Positions 4,746 through 49,825 of a stretch of 64,000 nt of DNA are shown one piece after another (the stretch's first letter is position 1; each line of letters begins with the position of its first letter). The translations under genes were made by a program, and so were the position numbers. Source of the DNA: Acidimicrobiia bacterium (lineage in GTDB: Bacteria > Actinomycetota > Acidimicrobiia > UBA2766); assembly GCA_020850945.1 (NCBI GenBank), contig JADZDR010000049.1, positions 1 to 64,000 on the forward strand. The letters run 5' to 3'. A model generated the notes under the pieces. The model was not told the origin of the DNA, ran no database searches, and saw only the letters and a list, made by a program, of their open reading frames with translations.

Positions 4746-6759
<2,014 letters not shown>

Positions 6760-33136: not shown

Positions 33137-33137
<1 letters not shown>
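29694..33137 (+). CDS. rpoB: DNA-directed RNA polymerase subunit beta
   Basis: The roughly 1147-residue beta subunit forms one half of the polymerase active-site cleft and is the rifampicin target. Visible landmarks include the rifampicin region ([20 protein letters not shown]), [19 protein letters not shown], and the C-terminal [21 protein letters not shown] choose TTG 29694 because AAAGGAG ends 8 nt upstream; ATG 29688 and GTG 29685 are too close to that site. The rifampicin region keeps Asp516, His526 and Ser531 (E. coli numbers) but differs at several neighbours. The stop overlaps the rpoC start (TGATG). Confidence 0.98.
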
Positions 33138-37048
<3,911 letters not shown>

Positions 37049-37080: not shown

Positions 37081-37806
37081 ATGGGCGCTGCGTTCGGCTT
37101 CCTCACGATCGTCGGAGGCAGGCGGCCGTCACCGGACCCACGGTCGCTCCTCTGGTTCCCCGTCGTCGGTCTCGTCGTGGGCGCTGCCGTGGGATCGGCG
37201 TCGTGGGTGGCAGGCCGCGTGTGGGCACCTCTCCTCGCCGCCGGTGTCGCCGTGACTGCCGATCTGATTCTCACGGGGGCTCTGCACTTCGACGGTCTCG
37301 TCGACACGGCCGACGGCCTCCTGCCTCACTCACCTGACGCGGCCACTCGCCTCGACGTCATGCAGGCTCCCGATGTCGGCGCGTTCGGTCTCGCCACCGG
37401 TGCCGTCGCCCTCGGGTTGCGTTGGGCCGGTCTGGCCGCCGGGCCCGTGGGAGTCGAGGGAATCGCGCTCGTGGCCGGGCTCTGGTGCCTGTCGCGAACC
37501 TGTCTCGTGCCGATCGTGGGCTTGGTTCCGTATGCGAGGACGGAGGGACTGGCCTCGGCCTTCACGAGGCGCCTCGACGGGGCGGGCATCGCCGTCAGCG
37601 GGCTCGGCCTCGCCGCGTCCGTGACCCTGTTGTTCTACGCTCGGGGCTTCGCCGGCATCGTCGTTGTCCTCGCTGCTTGCATGGCGGGGATCGGTGTCGT
37701 GCTCCTCGCGAAGTGCCGGATCGAGGGCTACACGGGGGATGTGCTCGGAGCGGCCGTCGTGGCCGGTGAGACGGTGGGCCTGCTCGCCGCCACGGCCCGG
37801 ATCTGA
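37081..37806 (+). CDS. cobS: Adenosylcobinamide-GDP ribazoletransferase (cobalamin synthase)
   Basis: The 241-residue polytopic membrane protein has the CobS hallmarks HFDGLVDTADGLL (the acidic Mg-binding motif) and EGYTGDVLGA near the end. CobS joins adenosylcobinamide-GDP to alpha-ribazole (or its 5'-phosphate) in the last part of the B12 nucleotide-loop assembly. GGAGG lies about 8 nt upstream of the ATG. It precedes the HAD-CobT fusion gene by 14 nt, so the two enzymes for lower-ligand activation and attachment are made together. No cobU/cobP kinase is in the window. Confidence 0.93.
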   Translation: MGAAFGFLTIVGGRRPSPDPRSLLWFPVVGLVVGAAVGSASWVAGRVWAPLLAAGVAVTADLILTGALHFDGLVDTADGLLPHSPDAATRLDVMQAPDVGAFGLATGAVALGLRWAGLAAGPVGVEGIALVAGLWCLSRTCLVPIVGLVPYARTEGLASAFTRRLDGAGIAVSGLGLAASVTLLFYARGFAGIVVVLAACMAGIGVVLLAKCRIEGYTGDVLGAAVVAGETVGLLAATARI

Positions 37807-37820
37807 TCCAAGGAGAAGAC

Positions 37821-39317
37821 GTGAACGAAGCCATCCTCTTCGACGTGGGCGGGACCCTCGTTCATGAGAACACCCCCGGAACCGCGATCGAAGACCTCGA
37901 TGTCAGGCTCCGACGCGGTGTCGCGTCCGACTTGAAGGCCCTCGCCGGCAGGTTCCGGCTCGGTGCTGTCACGAACACGGCGCACATGACGGAGAGCGAC
38001 GTGCGGCACCTCCTCGCGCGGGTGGACCTCGACACGTTGCTCGAAGTCGTGGTGACGTCGGTGGATGTCGGTGCCGCCAAGCCCGATCCGGCGGGTCTGC
38101 TCGTGGCCTGCGAGCGCCTCGGTGTCGGACCCGGGACGGCCCTCTATGTCGGCAACGAGGCAACGGACGCCGCAGCCGCGGCGGCGGCCGGCATGGCGTA
38201 CGTGGATGTGCAGGACCGTCTCCTTCCGACCGTGCTCGCCGGATTGGCGCAGGCCAGCGGGCCCTTCGAGGCTGCCCGTGCAATGCTCGCCCCACGAGAC
38301 GCCGAGGCCGCTGGGCAGGCGGCTGCGCATCTCGACCGCCTCACGAAGCCTCGCGGTTCCCTCGGCCGCCTCGAGGCACTCGTCGTCTGGCTCGCGGCCG
38401 TGGCGGGGGAGGTGCCACCCCCGCCACCGGATCCGATCGGAGTCGCCGTGTTCGCCGGCGACCACGGCGTCGCCCGCATGGGAGTCACGCCCTGGCCGCA
38501 GGAAGTGACCGCGCAGATGGTGCAGAACATCGGAAGCGGGGGAGCCGCGATCAGCGTGCTCTCGCGACGCGCGCAGGCGTCCCTGGTGGTGGTCGACGTC
38601 GGGGTCGCAGCCGACTACGACGCGGGGGACGCCGTACGCATGGAGCGGATCCGGCGGGGAACAGGGAACATCGCGGTCGAGCCCGCGATGACCCTCCACG
38701 AGGCGCGGGTGGCGCTCGACAGCGGCGCACAGGTGGCGCTCGACCTCGTCGGGGCGGGACACCGGTGTCTCGTGACGGGAGAGATGGGGATCGGGAACAC
38801 GACACCGTCGGCTGCGCTCATCGCCGCGTTCACGGGCCGGGACGCGGCCGAAGTGACGGGCCGCGGCACCGGCATAGACGACGCGATGCTCGCCCACAAG
38901 ATCGACATGGTGCGGACAGCCGTCGCGAGGCTCGACGCGGGCATGGATCCCGTGGCGGTCCTCGCCGAGGTCGGCGGCCTCGAGCAGGCCGCTCTCACCG
39001 GGTATCTCATGGCCGGGGCAGCGCTGCGTGTCCCTGTCGTGGTCGACGGCGTGATCGCGGATGCCGCGCTCGTTGCCGCCGCGGAGATGGATGCGACAGT
39101 CCTCGACTTCGTCGTGGCCGGGCACCGTTCCGTCGAACCGGGTGCCGCCGTTGCCCTCGACCACCTCGGCCTGCGGCCCCTGCTCGACCTCGAACTGCGA
39201 CTCGGGGAGGGGACGGGGGCGATACTGGGCGCGGACCTGTTGCGGGCCGCGGCGGCGCTCGCGGCCGAGATGGCGACGTTCGACAGTGCGGGCGTGTCCG
39301 AGAAGGAGGCGGAATGA
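37821..39317 (+). CDS. cobT: HAD-family hydrolase fused to CobT (DMB phosphoribosyltransferase)
   Basis: The 498-residue protein has two parts. Residues 1 to about 145 form a HAD domain: motif I FDVGGTLV (nucleophile Asp8, but Gly at the usual acid/base Asp+2), motif II AVTNTA, motif III Lys in AAKPDPAGL, and motif IV VGNEATDAA. Residues about 158-498 are CobT, with AVFAGDHGVARMGVTPWP, TGEMGIGNTT and the catalytic-Glu segment ELRLGEGTGAIL. CobT makes alpha-ribazole-5'-phosphate from nicotinate mononucleotide and dimethylbenzimidazole. A fused phosphatase would remove its 5'-phosphate, the CobC step. The fusion is seen; that function is inferred. The start has AAGGAG 7 nt upstream, and the stop overlaps the next ATG. 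Confidence 0.88.
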   Translation: MNEAILFDVGGTLVHENTPGTAIEDLDVRLRRGVASDLKALAGRFRLGAVTNTAHMTESDVRHLLARVDLDTLLEVVVTSVDVGAAKPDPAGLLVACERLGVGPGTALYVGNEATDAAAAAAAGMAYVDVQDRLLPTVLAGLAQASGPFEAARAMLAPRDAEAAGQAAAHLDRLTKPRGSLGRLEALVVWLAAVAGEVPPPPPDPIGVAVFAGDHGVARMGVTPWPQEVTAQMVQNIGSGGAAISVLSRRAQASLVVVDVGVAADYDAGDAVRMERIRRGTGNIAVEPAMTLHEARVALDSGAQVALDLVGAGHRCLVTGEMGIGNTTPSAALIAAFTGRDAAEVTGRGTGIDDAMLAHKIDMVRTAVARLDAGMDPVAVLAEVGGLEQAALTGYLMAGAALRVPVVVDGVIADAALVAAAEMDATVLDFVVAGHRSVEPGAAVALDHLGLRPLLDLELRLGEGTGAILGADLLRAAAALAAEMATFDSAGVSEKEAE

Positions 39318-40516
39318 GTGTCCCCGAGCAAGCCCGGGTCGACGGGGCGGTGGCAGCCCTCCTCGCGAAATGCGATCCGCCCGGCACCGATCCGGTCGAG
39401 TTGCGTGGGCTCGTCTACGACCACGGGCTCGCCTGGGTGCACTTCCCCGAGGGGTACGGCGGCCTCGGGGTCCCGCCGACTCTGCAGCGGAACGTGGACT
39501 CGGCCCTGCACAAGGCCGGTGTCCGACCACCCGACGACCTCCTCTTCTTCGGTTTGGCGCTCGCCGGTCCCACGGTCGTGACCCACGGGAGTGACGACTT
39601 GCGCAGGCGGCTCCTCCGCCCCATGTTCACGGGGGAGCACAAGTGGTGCCAGCTCTTCAGTGAGCCGGGCGCGGGGAGCGACCTCGCCGGCCTCGCGTGC
39701 CGTGCCGTGCGGGACGGGGACGAGTGGGTCGTGACGGGTCAGAAGGTGTGGAACACGCTCGCGCACGTGGCCGACCGGGGCATGCTCCTCGCCCGCACCG
39801 ACCCGGACGTGCCCAAGCACAAGGGCATCACGTACTTCGCGCTCGACATGCACGCACCCGGCGTCACGGTGAGGCCTCTGCGCCAGATCACGGGTCAGGC
39901 CGAGTTCAACGAGGTGTACATCGACGAGGTGCGCGTGCCGGATGCCGATCGGCTCGGGGATGTGGGTGACGGGTGGCGGGTTGCCATGACGACGCTCATG
40001 AACGAGCGCACGACCATCGGCGGTTCGGCCGGCGGTGGCGGTCCCGCGCGGGGTTCGGGCGCGATCGGCGAGGCCCTGCGCCTCTGGGCGGAGCGGGTGG
40101 AGAAGCCGCCTGTGTTGCGGGATCGGCTCGCCAGGCTTTGGATGGACGCCGAGGTTCTGCGGCTCACGAACATGCGGGCGGCGCAGGCGTTGCGGGCCGG
40201 CAATCCCGGTCCCGAGGGCTCGATCGCGAAGTTGCGCTTCGCCGAGGTGAACCAGCAGATCTACGAGATGTGCGTCGGCCTTCTCGGCGCGGCGGGCTGC
40301 GTCGACTTCGACTACGAGATGCGCCGCTCCGAGGTGATCGGCCTCGTGGGGCCGCCGGGTGCGGGACGCACCATGTTCCTGCGTTCACGGGCGAACTCGA
40401 TCGAGGGCGGCACATCCGAGATCCAGCGCAACATCCTGGGTGAGCAGGTCCTCGGCCTACCCCGTGAGCCCCGCCTCGACAAGGACAAGCCCTGGTCCGA
40501 GGTACCCCGCGCCTAG
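39314..40516 (+). CDS. Acyl-CoA dehydrogenase
   Basis: The 400-residue flavoprotein has the acyl-CoA dehydrogenase marks: HKWCQLFSEPGAGSDLAGL (FAD/substrate loop), VVTGQKVWNTLAHVADRGM, and the C-terminal NSIEGGTSEIQRNILGEQVLG. It oxidises acyl-CoA thioesters to enoyl-CoA, passing electrons to ETF. Chain length cannot be told. Its ATG overlaps the cobT-fusion stop (ATGA), so it is read from the same message although it has no evident tie to B12. At its end, the palindrome CTAG supplies TAG stops for both this gene and the convergent LLM oxidoreductase. Confidence 0.92.
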   Translation: MSVPEQARVDGAVAALLAKCDPPGTDPVELRGLVYDHGLAWVHFPEGYGGLGVPPTLQRNVDSALHKAGVRPPDDLLFFGLALAGPTVVTHGSDDLRRRLLRPMFTGEHKWCQLFSEPGAGSDLAGLACRAVRDGDEWVVTGQKVWNTLAHVADRGMLLARTDPDVPKHKGITYFALDMHAPGVTVRPLRQITGQAEFNEVYIDEVRVPDADRLGDVGDGWRVAMTTLMNERTTIGGSAGGGGPARGSGAIGEALRLWAERVEKPPVLRDRLARLWMDAEVLRLTNMRAAQALRAGNPGPEGSIAKLRFAEVNQQIYEMCVGLLGAAGCVDFDYEMRRSEVIGLVGPPGAGRTMFLRSRANSIEGGTSEIQRNILGEQVLGLPREPRLDKDKPWSEVPRA

Positions 40517-44614: not shown

Positions 44615-45259
44615 GTGCCGGTACAGACCCAGATGCAACGCACGAAGGCGGATACGCGGGCCGTGATCCTCGACGCGGCCGAGCGTGTCTTCCTGGAGCA
44701 CGGGTGGCGGGCGGCCGGCATGCGTGAGGTTGCCGACGGGGCAGGGCTGGCCCCGTCGAGCCTCTACAACCACTTCCCGTCGAAGAAGGAGCTCTTCGCA
44801 GCCGTGATCTCGCGGCGGGCGTCCGAGCTCCAAGAGGATGCCCTGCAGGGCTTCCTGCGGGGACGAAACTTCCCGGAGGATCTCGAGTACGTGGTCGGCA
44901 TGATGCGCCGCCTCGCACGTGACCACGCCGAGTTCGTACGTCTTGCGATCATCGATCTCGTCGAGTTCGGCGCGGCCCACATCACGGGGCTCGACCTCGA
45001 CCTCGTGCCGGTGATCGAGGCGCTCTTCCGACCCCACTTCGAGCGTGACGTGGAGGCGGGGCTGTTGCGGGACTTCGACCTCATGGTCGTCGTGCGGTTC
45101 GTCTACCTCGCCCTGTTCGGGTACTTCGGCATCGCCCAGCTCTACGGCAACCAGTTCCCCGCCCTCGTCGACATCGAGTACGAGAACCGTGAGATCGCCC
45201 GCCTCCTCGAGCGGGGAATCCTCGCTTCCCACACAGCCGACACGAAGGAGAAGTCGTGA
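44615..45259 (+). CDS. TetR/AcrR-family transcriptional regulator
   Basis: The 214-residue protein has the TetR DNA-binding domain in its first 55 residues: TRAVILDAAERVFLEHGW, then MREVADGAGLAPSSLYNHF and SKKELFAAVI. The C-terminal ligand domain is helical and not assignable. The GTG start follows GGAG by about 10 nt. The stop overlaps the GTG of the next gene (GTGA), so regulator and oxidoreductase genes form one operon. The dyad over its promoter suggests that it represses itself and the three downstream genes until a ligand binds. Confidence 0.93.
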   Translation: MPVQTQMQRTKADTRAVILDAAERVFLEHGWRAAGMREVADGAGLAPSSLYNHFPSKKELFAAVISRRASELQEDALQGFLRGRNFPEDLEYVVGMMRRLARDHAEFVRLAIIDLVEFGAAHITGLDLDLVPVIEALFRPHFERDVEAGLLRDFDLMVVVRFVYLALFGYFGIAQLYGNQFPALVDIEYENREIARLLERGILASHTADTKEKS

Positions 45260-46680
45260 ACACAGATCTGCTCGAACGCATCCCGGGGGTCGGGGAACAC
45301 CGCTTCGACGCCGAAGGCGTCGCGGTGGTGGCACCGGCGGGCGTCGACGAGCTCGCGACCTTCGTGCGTTGGGCGCGGGCCGAGCGTATTCCGCTGTGGC
45401 CGCGCAGCTCCACGAGTCTGCGTCGCAGTGTGCGTCCCGACGGTCCGGGACTCGTCGTCGACATGTCGGGCCTGAAGGAGATCATCCGGGTCGACCGCCG
45501 CAACCGGGTCACTCTCGTGCAGGCCGGCGTCACGTTCGAGGAGCTCGCGCCGGCCCTGGAGAGGGAGGGGCTGCGTGCGGTCATGCCCCTCTGTCCTCGA
45601 CGCGGCAAGTCGGTGCTCGCGACCCACATCGAGCGCGAGGCGACGATCATGCCTGCCTTCCAATGGGATCTCTCGGATCCGCTGCTCTGCCTCGAGCTCG
45701 TCTACGGGTCGGGTGACCAGTTCCGCACCGGATCGGCGGCAGGCCCGGGCAACCTCGACCAACAGTGGGCGTCGGGTGAAATGCAGAAGGGCCCGATGGG
45801 ACCCGGCCATGCCGACTGGATGCGGATCGTGCAGGGGGCGCAGGGCACGATCGGGATCGCGACGTGGGCCTCGGTGAAGGCGGAGGTCCTTCCCCGCATC
45901 GAGACCGTGCACGTGGGTGCATCCGACACGCTCACGCCTCTCGTGGAATGCGCATACCGCCTCCTGCGCAAGAACGCCGTCGACATCTGCTTCATCGTCG
46001 ACGCGAACGCGTTCGTCGACCTCGTCGGCACCACCGAGGGATCCCGGGCGGAGGCAGCACGCCGCACGCAGCCGTGGAACCTCGTGATGTCCGTGAGCGG
46101 GCTCGACTACCTCCCCGAGCGGCGGCACGCCGTGTACAGCCGCATGCTCCGTGACGAGGCGCGGGCGGCCGGGGTCCGCCTCGTCGACCCCCCGCTCGGT
46201 TCGGGCGAGACCCTTCTCGCCCTTCTCCGGCGTTCCTCCGAGGAGCCGTACTGGAAGGAGCGGCGCCGCGGTGCCTCCCGCCAGGTCTTCTTCCAGACGA
46301 CACTCGAGGCAGCCGGGGCCTTCTGTGCGTCGTTCGCAGTCCACGCGGCGGGGGCCGGCATCGACACCGACCGCATCGGCACGTACATCCAACCCCAACT
46401 CGGAGGACGGGTGGCACACGTCGAGCTCATCGTGGCCTGTGAGCCCGGCACGGACGAGGTGGCGGAGACGGGGCGCTTCGCCGATGCCGTCGCCGTGCCC
46501 CTCACGGCCGAGGGTGCGTTCTTCTCGCGCCCGTACGGTGCGTGGGCGGAACCGGCGTTCGAGGCGGCCGCGTCGAGCGTCGACATCCTCGAACGCGCCA
46601 AGACGATCTTCGACCCCGCCCGGATCCTCGCACCCGGCCGCCTCGGCCTGAAAGGAAACCCCGATGGCTACGCGTTCTGA
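45256..46680 (+). CDS. FAD-binding oxidoreductase (PCMH/FAD_binding_4 type), subunit of a three-gene complex
   Basis: The 474-residue protein has the PCMH flavin fold: VAVVAPAGVDELATFVRWAR, PLWPRSSTSLRR, then GLVVDMSGLKEIIRVD and VQAGVTFEELAPAL. These correspond to the nucleotide-binding parts of GlcD/GlcE and related 2-hydroxyacid dehydrogenases. The C-terminal part is divergent, ending ERAKTIFDPARILAPGRLG, the common closing motif of FAD-linked oxidases. It is translated from a GTG overlapping the TetR stop, and its 3' end overlaps the Fe-S gene by 17 nt. I infer a multi-subunit dehydrogenase; the substrate is unknown. Confidence 0.82.
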   Translation: MNTDLLERIPGVGEHRFDAEGVAVVAPAGVDELATFVRWARAERIPLWPRSSTSLRRSVRPDGPGLVVDMSGLKEIIRVDRRNRVTLVQAGVTFEELAPALEREGLRAVMPLCPRRGKSVLATHIEREATIMPAFQWDLSDPLLCLELVYGSGDQFRTGSAAGPGNLDQQWASGEMQKGPMGPGHADWMRIVQGAQGTIGIATWASVKAEVLPRIETVHVGASDTLTPLVECAYRLLRKNAVDICFIVDANAFVDLVGTTEGSRAEAARRTQPWNLVMSVSGLDYLPERRHAVYSRMLRDEARAAGVRLVDPPLGSGETLLALLRRSSEEPYWKERRRGASRQVFFQTTLEAAGAFCASFAVHAAGAGIDTDRIGTYIQPQLGGRVAHVELIVACEPGTDEVAETGRFADAVAVPLTAEGAFFSRPYGAWAEPAFEAAASSVDILERAKTIFDPARILAPGRLGLKGNPDGYAF

Positions 46681-47965
46681 GACCAGGCACCAGAGCCTCG
46701 ACGACCTCGACCACCTCGCAGCCAAGTGCCCGCGCTGCTCCCTCTGCAAGTTCCCACCCCTCGTCGCCGTGCGCTCCCACGCCCGCAGCAGCATCTGTCC
46801 TTCCTACGACGAGTACAAGTACCACAGCCACTCGGGAAGCGGGAGGGTGATCATCGCCAACGCCCTCCACGACGGGCGTATCGACGTGACCGAGGGCACG
46901 CGGGACGTGATCTTCCAGTGCACGATGTGTGGTGGCTGCGACATGTCGTGCAAGTTCTCGACCGACATCGAGATCAGCGAGATCATGTTCGCCCTGCGCG
47001 CCGAGTCCCACGAGCGATGCGGACCCCTACCCGCCCATGCACAGGTCCTCGACAACCTGCGCGGTCACGGGCACCCGTTCGACGCGACGGGCGGGAGCAA
47101 GGACGACTGGCTCGCCGAGATCACCGGCGTTCGCACGGGCTTGTCCAAGCGCGTCCTTCTCGTGGGTTCCTCCTACGCTCTCCTCCCGGACCGGCGACGG
47201 ACCCTCCTCAACCTCGTGCGTCTCCTGCAGGTGGCCGGAGTCGAGTTCACCGTCCTCGGCGCCGACGAACCCGACACGGGCACGATGGCCCTTCACATCG
47301 GCGACCGCGACCTCTTCGACACACTCGCGCGCGACTTCGTCGGGATCTTCAACACGGCGGGTGTCGAGGAGATCGTGTGCGCCGACCCAGAGGACTTCGC
47401 CACCCTGCGAGCCCACTTCGGCAAGGTCGGTGACCTCCACGCCACGGTGCGACACGCGGTCGAGGTCCTCGACGAGGCGGTCGCCGCCGGCAGCCTGACT
47501 CTCCGTCACCGTGTCTCGCACCGCGCCACGTATCACGATCCGTGCAGTCTCGGACGACGGTCCGAGGAGTACCAAGCCTGGGACGGCGAGACGAAGAAGA
47601 TCATGGGTCAGCTCATCGTCACCGACCCACCGCGGCCGGTGAACCGGGGCACGCACGGTGTGTACGAGCCGCCACGGCGGCTCCTGCAGGCGGTGCCCGG
47701 CCTCGAGCTCGTCGAGATGCCCCGCAGGCGCGAGTACGCCTACTGCTGCGGCGGCTCGGGCGGCGTGCCCCAGGCATATCCGGAGTTCGCCTCGCACACG
47801 GCGCACGAGCGCCTCGACGAGGCCGGCGACGTCGGAGCGGAGATCGTGGTCAGCGCCTGCCCCGGCTGCGAGCGGAACCTGGACGGCGCCACGGACGGGA
47901 GGGGAGTCGAGGTTCTCGGCATCTACGACGTCCTGGCCGAGGCCGCCTTCGGCAACCGCGGGTGA
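46664..47965 (+). CDS. Fe-S/CCG-domain oxidoreductase subunit (GlcF/GlpC/HdrD-like)
   Basis: The 433-residue protein has two N-terminal Cys clusters, CPRCSLCKFPP (with CPSYDE further on) and CTMCGGCDMSCKF, suited to two [4Fe-4S] clusters. Two CCG-type domains follow: HDPCSLGRR and YCCGGSGG, then SACPGCERNL. This layout is that of GlcF, GlpC, LutA and HdrD subunits, which pass electrons from a flavoprotein to quinones or other carriers. AAAGGAA precedes the ATG by 6 nt. It lies between two flavoprotein genes. Confidence 0.85.
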   Translation: MATRSETRHQSLDDLDHLAAKCPRCSLCKFPPLVAVRSHARSSICPSYDEYKYHSHSGSGRVIIANALHDGRIDVTEGTRDVIFQCTMCGGCDMSCKFSTDIEISEIMFALRAESHERCGPLPAHAQVLDNLRGHGHPFDATGGSKDDWLAEITGVRTGLSKRVLLVGSSYALLPDRRRTLLNLVRLLQVAGVEFTVLGADEPDTGTMALHIGDRDLFDTLARDFVGIFNTAGVEEIVCADPEDFATLRAHFGKVGDLHATVRHAVEVLDEAVAAGSLTLRHRVSHRATYHDPCSLGRRSEEYQAWDGETKKIMGQLIVTDPPRPVNRGTHGVYEPPRRLLQAVPGLELVEMPRRREYAYCCGGSGGVPQAYPEFASHTAHERLDEAGDVGAEIVVSACPGCERNLDGATDGRGVEVLGIYDVLAEAAFGNRG

Positions 47966-47989
47966 GTGAGCGAGAGGAAGGGACCGATC

Positions 47990-49825
47990 ATGGGAAGCGT
48001 TCTCGGCGTCAGCGGAGAATCGACACTGACGGAGGAAGAGGCGGCTGCACTCCGAGACGAGGTCGTCGCCGAGCTCGCCCTCGTCGTCGGCGATCGCTGG
48101 GTGACGGCGGAGCCGGCGATTCTCGACGGCTACGCCTGGCAGTACCTCGCCGAGGCGGCCACGGGTGAACGCTGGATGGCCAGACCCCTCGCGGTCGTCC
48201 TGCCCGGCTGCACCGAGGACGTCGCCGAGATCGTCCGCCACTGCAACCACAAGGGCATCCAGTTCAAGGCCGTGTCGACGGGATTCGGCGCCTGGGGGGC
48301 TGCTGCACAACCCGACAGCATGGTCCAGATCGACCTGCGCCGCATGGACCGCATCCTCGAGATCGACGCCAAGAACATGTATGCCGTCGTCGAACCGTAC
48401 GTGACCGGCAACCAGCTCCAGACGGAGGCGTTCAGCGTCGGCCTCAACACCCACATCGCCGGCGTGGGAGGCCAGACCTCCGTCCTCGCCTCGGCCACGT
48501 CGATGATGGGCCAGGGCTGGGACGGGGTCTCGATGAGCTTCTCGTGCCGGAACCTGCTGGGAGCGGAGTGGGTGACTCCCGAAGGCGAGATCGTGCGCAT
48601 CGGGAGCTTCGAGTCCGCCGGTCGGTGGTTCGCGGGGGACGGGCCCGGCCCGTCGATCCGGGGCGTCTTCCGCGGCTTCGCCGGGGCCCTAGGTGGCCTC
48701 GGGGTCTTCACGAAGGCGGCTGTCAAGCTCTACCCGTGGGAGGGTCCAGAGGCGCTCGAGGTCGGCGGCGCTTCCCCCTACTACGAGACGGAGATCCCCG
48801 AGCACCATCTCTCGGCCCTCTGCATCGTCGACGACTGGAAGGGTATGGCGGAGCTGGGCTACCGCCTCGGCGACGCCGGCATCGCCCTCGCCGTCTCACG
48901 CAACGCGCCGTCCGTCATGGGTGCGGTCCTCACGGCCGACAACAACGAGTTCGCCGACATCTACGAGGTGCCGTTCGTCCACGAGCTGTACTACACGCTC
49001 GTCGTCATCATCCAGGCAGACGATGCCGAGGAGTTCGCCTACAAGGTCGACGTCCTGAAGACGATCCTGCGCGAGCTCGACGGCGGCATGATCGCGAACC
49101 TGCCCGCGCACGAGTACACGTACTGGCTCGGCCGTTTCATCCGCACCCTCTCGCGGCGCGTGAAGGCGAAGGGCCTCTTGAAGTCGGCGCCGGGCACGCT
49201 GGGGCTGTTCCGGACGTTCGGGAAGCGCTACGGGTACCGCAAGCTCACGTCCTCGATGTCTGCCCTCCTCTACGAGGCTGTCGTGCGTTCGGGTCTCAAC
49301 ATGCGTGGCGTGTTCCGCTTCGGCGGCACCTTCTGGACCGCGATGGGTTCGCTCGCCTCCTGGGACAACGCGATCAAGGGAGCCCGTGTCGGCGCCCAGA
49401 TCAAGAAGAGGTATATCGACGAGGGAAAGTTCTTCGACGACGGTGCGGACAACGCGTGGGGAGGCCTCTACGAGAACGGTGCCTACTCGCATCTCGAGGA
49501 GCTCGCCTGTTACGACCCGACGGACGACGACAGCGGCGCGAACGTGATCGGCTACATCTTCGAGACGAACCTCGCGTCGGCCGAACACTTCCTCTCCCTG
49601 CCGCTGAACGCGTGCGGCCCGCAGGCGAGCACGTTCTTCAGCCCCCTCTGCGGTGGCTATCAGAACTGGCAGCTCGCCATAAAGAACACCTACGACCCGA
49701 ACAACGCGAGCGAGGGATCGAGCTATGTGATCCCCGACTACAAGCCGGGGCGCGGCCTGCGCAAGCTCGCCGGCAACGTCATGTCGGACCGGGCGGAGAT
49801 CGACCTCACGCAGGACGACCTCTGA
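47990..49825 (+). CDS. FAD-binding oxidoreductase (large flavoprotein of the same operon)
   Basis: The 611-residue protein starts at ATG 47990, with GAGGAAGGGA about 6 nt upstream; an in-frame GTG at 47966 lacks a site. The N-terminal PCMH domain includes RPLAVVLPGCTEDVAEIVRH, KAVSTGFGAWGAAA and MVQIDLRRMDRILEID, followed by AGVGGQTSVLASATSMMGQG. The rest is a large substrate domain with a YxxW-rich C-terminus. It is longer than GlcD and not closely like any enzyme I recognise. Together with the preceding two genes it may form a GlcDEF-like complex with a different substrate. Confidence 0.82.
   Translation: MGSVLGVSGESTLTEEEAAALRDEVVAELALVVGDRWVTAEPAILDGYAWQYLAEAATGERWMARPLAVVLPGCTEDVAEIVRHCNHKGIQFKAVSTGFGAWGAAAQPDSMVQIDLRRMDRILEIDAKNMYAVVEPYVTGNQLQTEAFSVGLNTHIAGVGGQTSVLASATSMMGQGWDGVSMSFSCRNLLGAEWVTPEGEIVRIGSFESAGRWFAGDGPGPSIRGVFRGFAGALGGLGVFTKAAVKLYPWEGPEALEVGGASPYYETEIPEHHLSALCIVDDWKGMAELGYRLGDAGIALAVSRNAPSVMGAVLTADNNEFADIYEVPFVHELYYTLVVIIQADDAEEFAYKVDVLKTILRELDGGMIANLPAHEYTYWLGRFIRTLSRRVKAKGLLKSAPGTLGLFRTFGKRYGYRKLTSSMSALLYEAVVRSGLNMRGVFRFGGTFWTAMGSLASWDNAIKGARVGAQIKKRYIDEGKFFDDGADNAWGGLYENGAYSHLEELACYDPTDDDSGANVIGYIFETNLASAEHFLSLPLNACGPQASTFFSPLCGGYQNWQLAIKNTYDPNNASEGSSYVIPDYKPGRGLRKLAGNVMSDRAEIDLTQDDL

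Follow-up and report, generated by a model that had tools for sequence, protein, structure and literature searches.

A HAD-type hydrolase domain fused to CobT as a candidate phosphatase of cobalamin lower-ligand assembly in Acidimicrobiia

RESULTS

A complete CobT carries an N-terminal HAD domain and lies beside cobS

In the 64-kb stretch of DNA analyzed here, referred to as the window, a single reading frame joins a hydrolase domain of the HAD type to CobT (Table 1). CobT joins dimethylbenzimidazole and nicotinate mononucleotide to yield alpha-ribazole-5'-phosphate, and CobS, whose gene ends 14 bases before the start of the fusion gene, acts next in the assembly of the nucleotide loop. A first-pass annotation of this DNA had described a 498-residue frame with a HAD domain and a complete CobT next to cobS, and the open reading frame, together with Pfam and NCBIfam matches, bears this out. 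Pfam HAD_2 matched residues 27 to 128 (E 2.3e-14) and DBI_PRT residues 158 to 492 (E 1e-120), a search with PF02277 gave E 2.8e-121, and the HAD-family profile described below matched the window at 37818-38258 with 207 bits. The CobT half is complete, because the NCBIfam model cobT_DBIPRT (TIGR03160) was covered over positions 2 to 334 of 334, scoring 395.5 bits against a cut-off of 319.3. An AlphaFold model of the whole fusion protein reached a pLDDT of 91 and a pTM of 0.91, and its CobT half has the CobT fold, with a TM score of 0.96 (by target length) and 46% identity to T. thermophilus CobT (1j33).

The annotation had also proposed a search of related genomes for HAD-CobT fusions, and these were found both in other Acidimicrobiia genomes and in named records, for example those of Aquihabitans sp. 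G128 (a complete chromosome) and Acidiferrimicrobium sp. IK. As homologous frames recur in other genomes, the fusion is not an assembly artifact. No cobalamin riboswitch was detected in the window at the gathering threshold. Elsewhere in the window, at 45256-49825, a FAD-binding gene (GlcD-like), a CCG/4Fe-4S gene and a second FAD-binding gene stand in a row, a set resembling a glycolate or D-lactate oxidase.

Table 1. Features of the HAD-CobT locus, in positions of the window
Feature	Position	Strand	Remarks
rpoC, upstream context	33137..37048	+	ORF translation, recognized by eye
cobS, adenosylcobinamide-GDP ribazoletransferase	37081..37806	+	PF02654, E 3.8e-35
RBS region AAGGAGA of the fusion gene	37808..37818	+	Direct reading of the sequence
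HAD-CobT fusion gene	37821..39317	+	498 aa, GTG start, uninterrupted single frame
N-terminal capless HAD domain	37821..38273	+	Residues 1-151; Pfam HAD_2/Hydrolase, family profile, domain model, conserved columns
Linker from HAD to CobT	38274..38297	+	Mostly helical in the model; alignment and modelled secondary structure
Complete CobT (nicotinate-nucleotide--dimethylbenzimidazole phosphoribosyltransferase)	38298..39296	+	TIGR03160, PF02277, TM to 1j33
Acyl-CoA dehydrogenase, context	39314..40516	+	Pfam Acyl-CoA_dh domains; ATG overlaps the HAD-CobT stop

The HAD domain keeps most catalytic residues and lacks the second Asp of motif I

The fused HAD domain is capless; the first-pass annotation mentioned neither this nor the Asn of motif IV described below. 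Its model (pLDDT 94) and the Foldseek matches place it in the HAD Rossmann fold, and its structural neighbors include the capless proteins HisB-N, GmhB and MDP-1, along with AlnB (PDB 4ex6 and 4ex7, entry title alnumycin P phosphatase), to which it is about 20% identical. The four motifs read D8-V-G-G-T (motif I), T51 (motif II), K87 (motif III) and G-N-E-A-T-D116 (motif IV). That motif I lacks a second Asp had been raised as a caveat, and the caveat holds for the whole family: Gly occupies the position in 27/27 members. The domain thereby departs from DxDx[TV], whose second Asp is typical of HAD phosphatases and not of all HADs. In motif IV of the window copy the second Asp is present and the first is Asn, a substitution seen in 4/27 members (the window copy, L200, L207 and L208), most relatives having Asp. 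The absence of the motif I general acid from all members, and the Asn of motif IV in those four, may weaken Mg2+ binding and turnover. The translated E. coli YihX, however, has the motif DLGNV, with Gly likewise two residues after the nucleophile, and YihX is an active glucose-1-phosphatase (PMC4251788); the missing second Asp therefore does not exclude phosphatase activity.

These substitutions raise the question of whether the domain is weak or dead and has a structural or regulatory function, for instance keeping CobT and the membrane protein CobS together in a complex, while a histidine phosphatase encoded elsewhere performs the CobC step. The invariant Gly of motif I and the Asn of the window copy would fit such a role, as would the six histidine phosphatases of the genome. 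It would also accord with Salmonella, where CobS recruits CobC and a complex for the late steps has been proposed (PMC8749415). We nevertheless consider it quite unlikely, for all 27 members of a divergent family keep the nucleophile Asp, the motif II Thr (Ser in one), the motif III Lys and the last Asp of motif IV, which a dead domain would not need, and the domain stands unfused in several genomes.

No NCBIfam equivalog scored over its cut-off for the HAD half, and neither Pfam nor NCBIfam gave a histidine phosphatase (RHG motif) match in the fusion protein. The protein may work like CobC, yet it is no member of the CobC (TIGR03162) family.

The HAD domain belongs to a distinct family found at cobalamin loci

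A family profile was built from 12 aligned HAD domains. Searched against 395 genomes of the class, it returned 12 matches at 184 to 219 bits, the next best reaching 66, and among 397 genomes of the phylum it added one member outside the class (G498, 191 bits). Scores within the family span 146 to 219 bits. In a scan of one genome per species across both bacteria and archaea, 21 named family loci turned up, in Actinomycetota or an unplaced MAG; the scan used the one pattern [LVI]FD[VI]G[GD]TLV, which variants such as FDVGNTL escape. A panel of cob proteins, compared with the surroundings of each locus, revealed at least one cobalamin gene beside 27/27 deduplicated members, a count that does not amount to 27 independent trials, the members being mutually related.

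HAD-CobT in one frame is the commonest arrangement and one of three kinds of fusion, the others being HAD-BluB-CobT (L200) and CobD-HAD (L213). Standalone forms take several positions. The HAD gene precedes BluB-CobT with an overlapping start in G333, follows cobQ with overlapping starts in L217, and follows cobU-cobS-cbiB-cobD-SUMT in G172, where its product has 176 aa. It lies within a BluB-CobT...cobS-cbiB-cobD-HAD-cobG cluster in G498, which belongs to another class. As in G498 and G172, the gene in L199 comes after cobD or in a SUMT-containing cluster, and in L204 it stands before btuF/btuC, an adenosyltransferase gene, cobT and cobU. The members lacking a CobT fusion were identified purely by sequence, which makes their cob-gene surroundings an independent line of evidence for function. 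This HAD domain thus forms a distinct family, confined to cobalamin loci in all members collected.

HAD domains are common, and generic ones in these genomes reach about 77 bits with the family profile, so it is conceivable that two neighboring genes were joined neutrally and that the HAD is a generalist phosphatase tied to no one pathway. Against this stand the clear break in scores, the cobalamin context of every member collected and the repeated fusions to cob enzymes, and we regard it as highly improbable.

Two sets of candidates were set aside as other HADs. L219-L232, from Thermoplasmata and others, carry FDVGGTLV-like motifs and have no cobT, cobS or cobU nearby; the 97-bit proteins of G397 and G646 likewise have none of these three genes, nor any panel cob gene, in their neighborhood.

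Several loci showed features of their own. The triple fusion HAD-BluB-CobT (L200:5974-8160, 729 aa) unites synthesis of the base, formation of the ribotide and the dephosphorylation proposed here. CobD (aminotransferase)-HAD at L213:4945-6429 lies upstream of btuF/btuC, an adenosyltransferase gene, cbiZ, cobU and cobS, and an AdoCbl riboswitch match follows it directly at 6568-6741. After cobQ-HAD, and also overlapping, L217:5796-7102 looks by eye like a phytanoyl-CoA dioxygenase-type gene. The lineage of L065/L201 (G172), L198 and L199 has kept a standalone HAD in a cobU-cobS-cbiB-cobD-SUMT cluster. No CobT was found with PF02277 in G172, which is 95% complete; either the assembly lacks cobT or alpha-ribazole phosphate comes from another source.

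The window genome appears to retain a single step that needs a phosphatase

The draft genome that contains the window (98.5% complete) encodes a BtuF-BtuC-ATPase-BtuR-CobU operon, preceded by a marginal cobalamin riboswitch match, in addition to CobS and HAD-CobT. CbiB was not found in this genome, and no BluB scored over the cut-off there. It looks like a corrinoid salvager with nucleotide loop steps only. In two genomes related to it, of the same genus (G001, only 87% complete) and the same family (G003), no CobT was found, although the window genome has HAD-CobT; the genes may be recent gains or losses.

Where only loop and lower-ligand steps are kept, the sole ester in need of a phosphatase is alpha-ribazole-5'-phosphate or AdoCbl-5'-phosphate. 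In Salmonella, dephosphorylation of AdoCbl-5'-phosphate is taken as the last step (PMC8749415). Fusion to CobT favors alpha-ribazole-5'-phosphate as the substrate of the HAD domain; neither the standalone forms nor CobD-HAD settle the choice between the two.

The HAD might instead act on some other phosphate within lower-ligand assembly, as a housekeeping or regulatory hydrolase. Candidate substrates would be (R)-1-amino-2-propanol phosphate and threonine phosphate on the CobD side, erythrose 4-phosphate and FMN on the BluB side, and NaMN. The fusions to CobD (L213) and BluB-CobT (L200) and the frequent position of the HAD after cobD lend themselves to this explanation, and HAD specificity is not given by sequence. 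The window genome, however, keeps the HAD without CbiB, so aminopropanol phosphate should be unused there, and with no BluB over the cut-off the BluB by-products should not arise there either. With CobT as the commonest fusion partner as well, we think another substrate unlikely.

No cobalamin context was found for the histidine phosphatases of the window genome

Six histidine phosphatases are encoded in the window genome. Three have assignments of other kinds: L006 is phosphoglycerate mutase-like, L002 an MSMEG_4193 phosphomutase and L004 acid phosphatase-like. The best assignment of L001, L003 and L005 is CobC-like or acid-phosphatase-like, in all cases under the cut-off. A cobC gene elsewhere in this genome, in the expected context, had been named as the finding that would count against the HAD; we looked for one and found no panel cob gene near any of the six, in the flanking ~6 kb or as much of it as the contig contains. 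In a tree of histidine phosphatases, none of the six grouped closely with the cob-linked ones from other families of the class. The tree was rejected as a means of identifying CobC, since the cob-linked proteins do not form one group, and TIGR03162 was rejected as a test of CobC presence, with 0 of the class genomes tested over its cut-off and sub-cut-off matches in 12-13/14 controls.

The absence of a clear CobC from many actinobacteria, as stated in the annotation, has to be qualified, given that mycobacteria have the RNase HI-CobC fusion Rv2228c (PMC7466739). No such fusion was found among the histidine phosphatases of the window genome, where the sole long frame, L001 (402 aa), has no recognizable RNase H before the phosphatase. 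Nor did the genome contain a match to PF04608, the type of CobZ, which we take to be PgpA-like.

The annotation had further suggested that HAD-CobT fusions might co-occur with the absence of cobC. A linked histidine phosphatase was present at 0/11 HAD-bearing CobT loci versus 6/~62 others, numbers too small to be informative about exclusion. About 100 of the 113 CobT-bearing genomes of the class are without this HAD and mostly without a linked histidine phosphatase; the reaction evidently falls to unlinked phosphatases there. Tandem histidine phosphatase domains were also observed, two in one frame in G273:C63 and in G212:C78, and four over two frames at G326:C100:2412-4840.

DISCUSSION

The first-pass proposal that the fused HAD is the missing phosphatase stands in part. 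The cobalamin-only family, the catalytic residues and the elimination of other pathway steps in this genome speak for it; against it are the six histidine phosphatases, three of them without a clear other role, which leave "missing" too strong a word. On balance, the HAD domain is probably a non-orthologous substitute for CobC (EC 3.1.3.73). From genomic context and conserved residues we infer that the domain is active, what it acts on and that it takes the place of CobC.

As a substitute for CobC, the fusion would be a two-step enzyme of B12 lower-ligand assembly. Its HAD domain would remove the 5'-phosphate, with Asp8 attacking the phosphate in the presence of Mg2+, Thr51 and Lys87 holding the phosphate, and water then releasing it, by the usual HAD route. 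The substrate would be either alpha-ribazole-5'-phosphate straight from CobT or AdoCbl-5'-phosphate after CobS, and the HAD would replace the histidine phosphatase CobC. For the family at large, which occurs in cobalamin operons of Acidimicrobiia and another actinobacterial class both as fusions (with CobT, BluB-CobT or CobD) and as standalone genes, the balance tips slightly toward an independently evolved B12 lower-ligand phosphatase, whose fused form would both make and dephosphorylate alpha-ribazole-5'-phosphate.

In the open-access literature (subscription papers lay outside the scope of the search), we found no earlier report of a HAD in the CobC step or of a HAD-CobT fusion. Histidine phosphatases are so numerous and so difficult to distinguish that CobC is among the least reliably annotated B12 steps. 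The HAD family, restricted to cobalamin loci and repeatedly joined to lower-ligand enzymes, offers a concrete and cheaply testable candidate for this step; in Acidimicrobiia it could also help to recognize cobinamide salvagers and B12 producers.

Comparison with known systems

CobC (TIGR03162) has the same proposed reaction and place in the pathway as the HAD. It is a histidine phosphatase forming a phospho-histidine, whereas a HAD forms a phospho-aspartate; fold and mechanism differ, and there is no homology. AlnB, also a HAD, removes the phosphate from a ribosylated aromatic compound; it differs in being longer and in having a cap domain. YihX (HAD4, alpha-D-glucose-1-phosphatase) shares the Gly of motif I, but it has a cap insert between motifs I and II and acts on a sugar phosphate.

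CobZ and CblZ are replacements of CobC (PMC8123684; PMC6593275), and thus likewise non-orthologous solutions to the same step. Acinetobacter MtlD, a mannitol-1-phosphate dehydrogenase/phosphatase (PDB 7ocr, PMC6291793), combines in one chain a phosphatase domain and the enzyme whose product it hydrolyzes, as proposed for HAD-CobT; substrate and partner are different, and the similarity of its HAD to that of the fusion is general only.

Fusions of two kinds are already known from this pathway (PMC4657239, PMC7466739). In RNase HI-CobC (Rv2228c, MSMEG_4305, SCO2299), also an actinobacterial fusion carrying a lower-ligand phosphatase, a histidine phosphatase is joined to an unrelated RNase H, and alpha-ribazole phosphatase activity has been reported for Rv2228c (PMC7466739). 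In the BluB/CobT2 fusion of Propionibacterium (PMC4657239), CobT is again fused to the enzyme of a neighboring step, but the partner is the DMB synthase and not a phosphatase. The HAD-BluB-CobT protein of L200 corresponds to the BluB/CobT2 pair with the HAD added.
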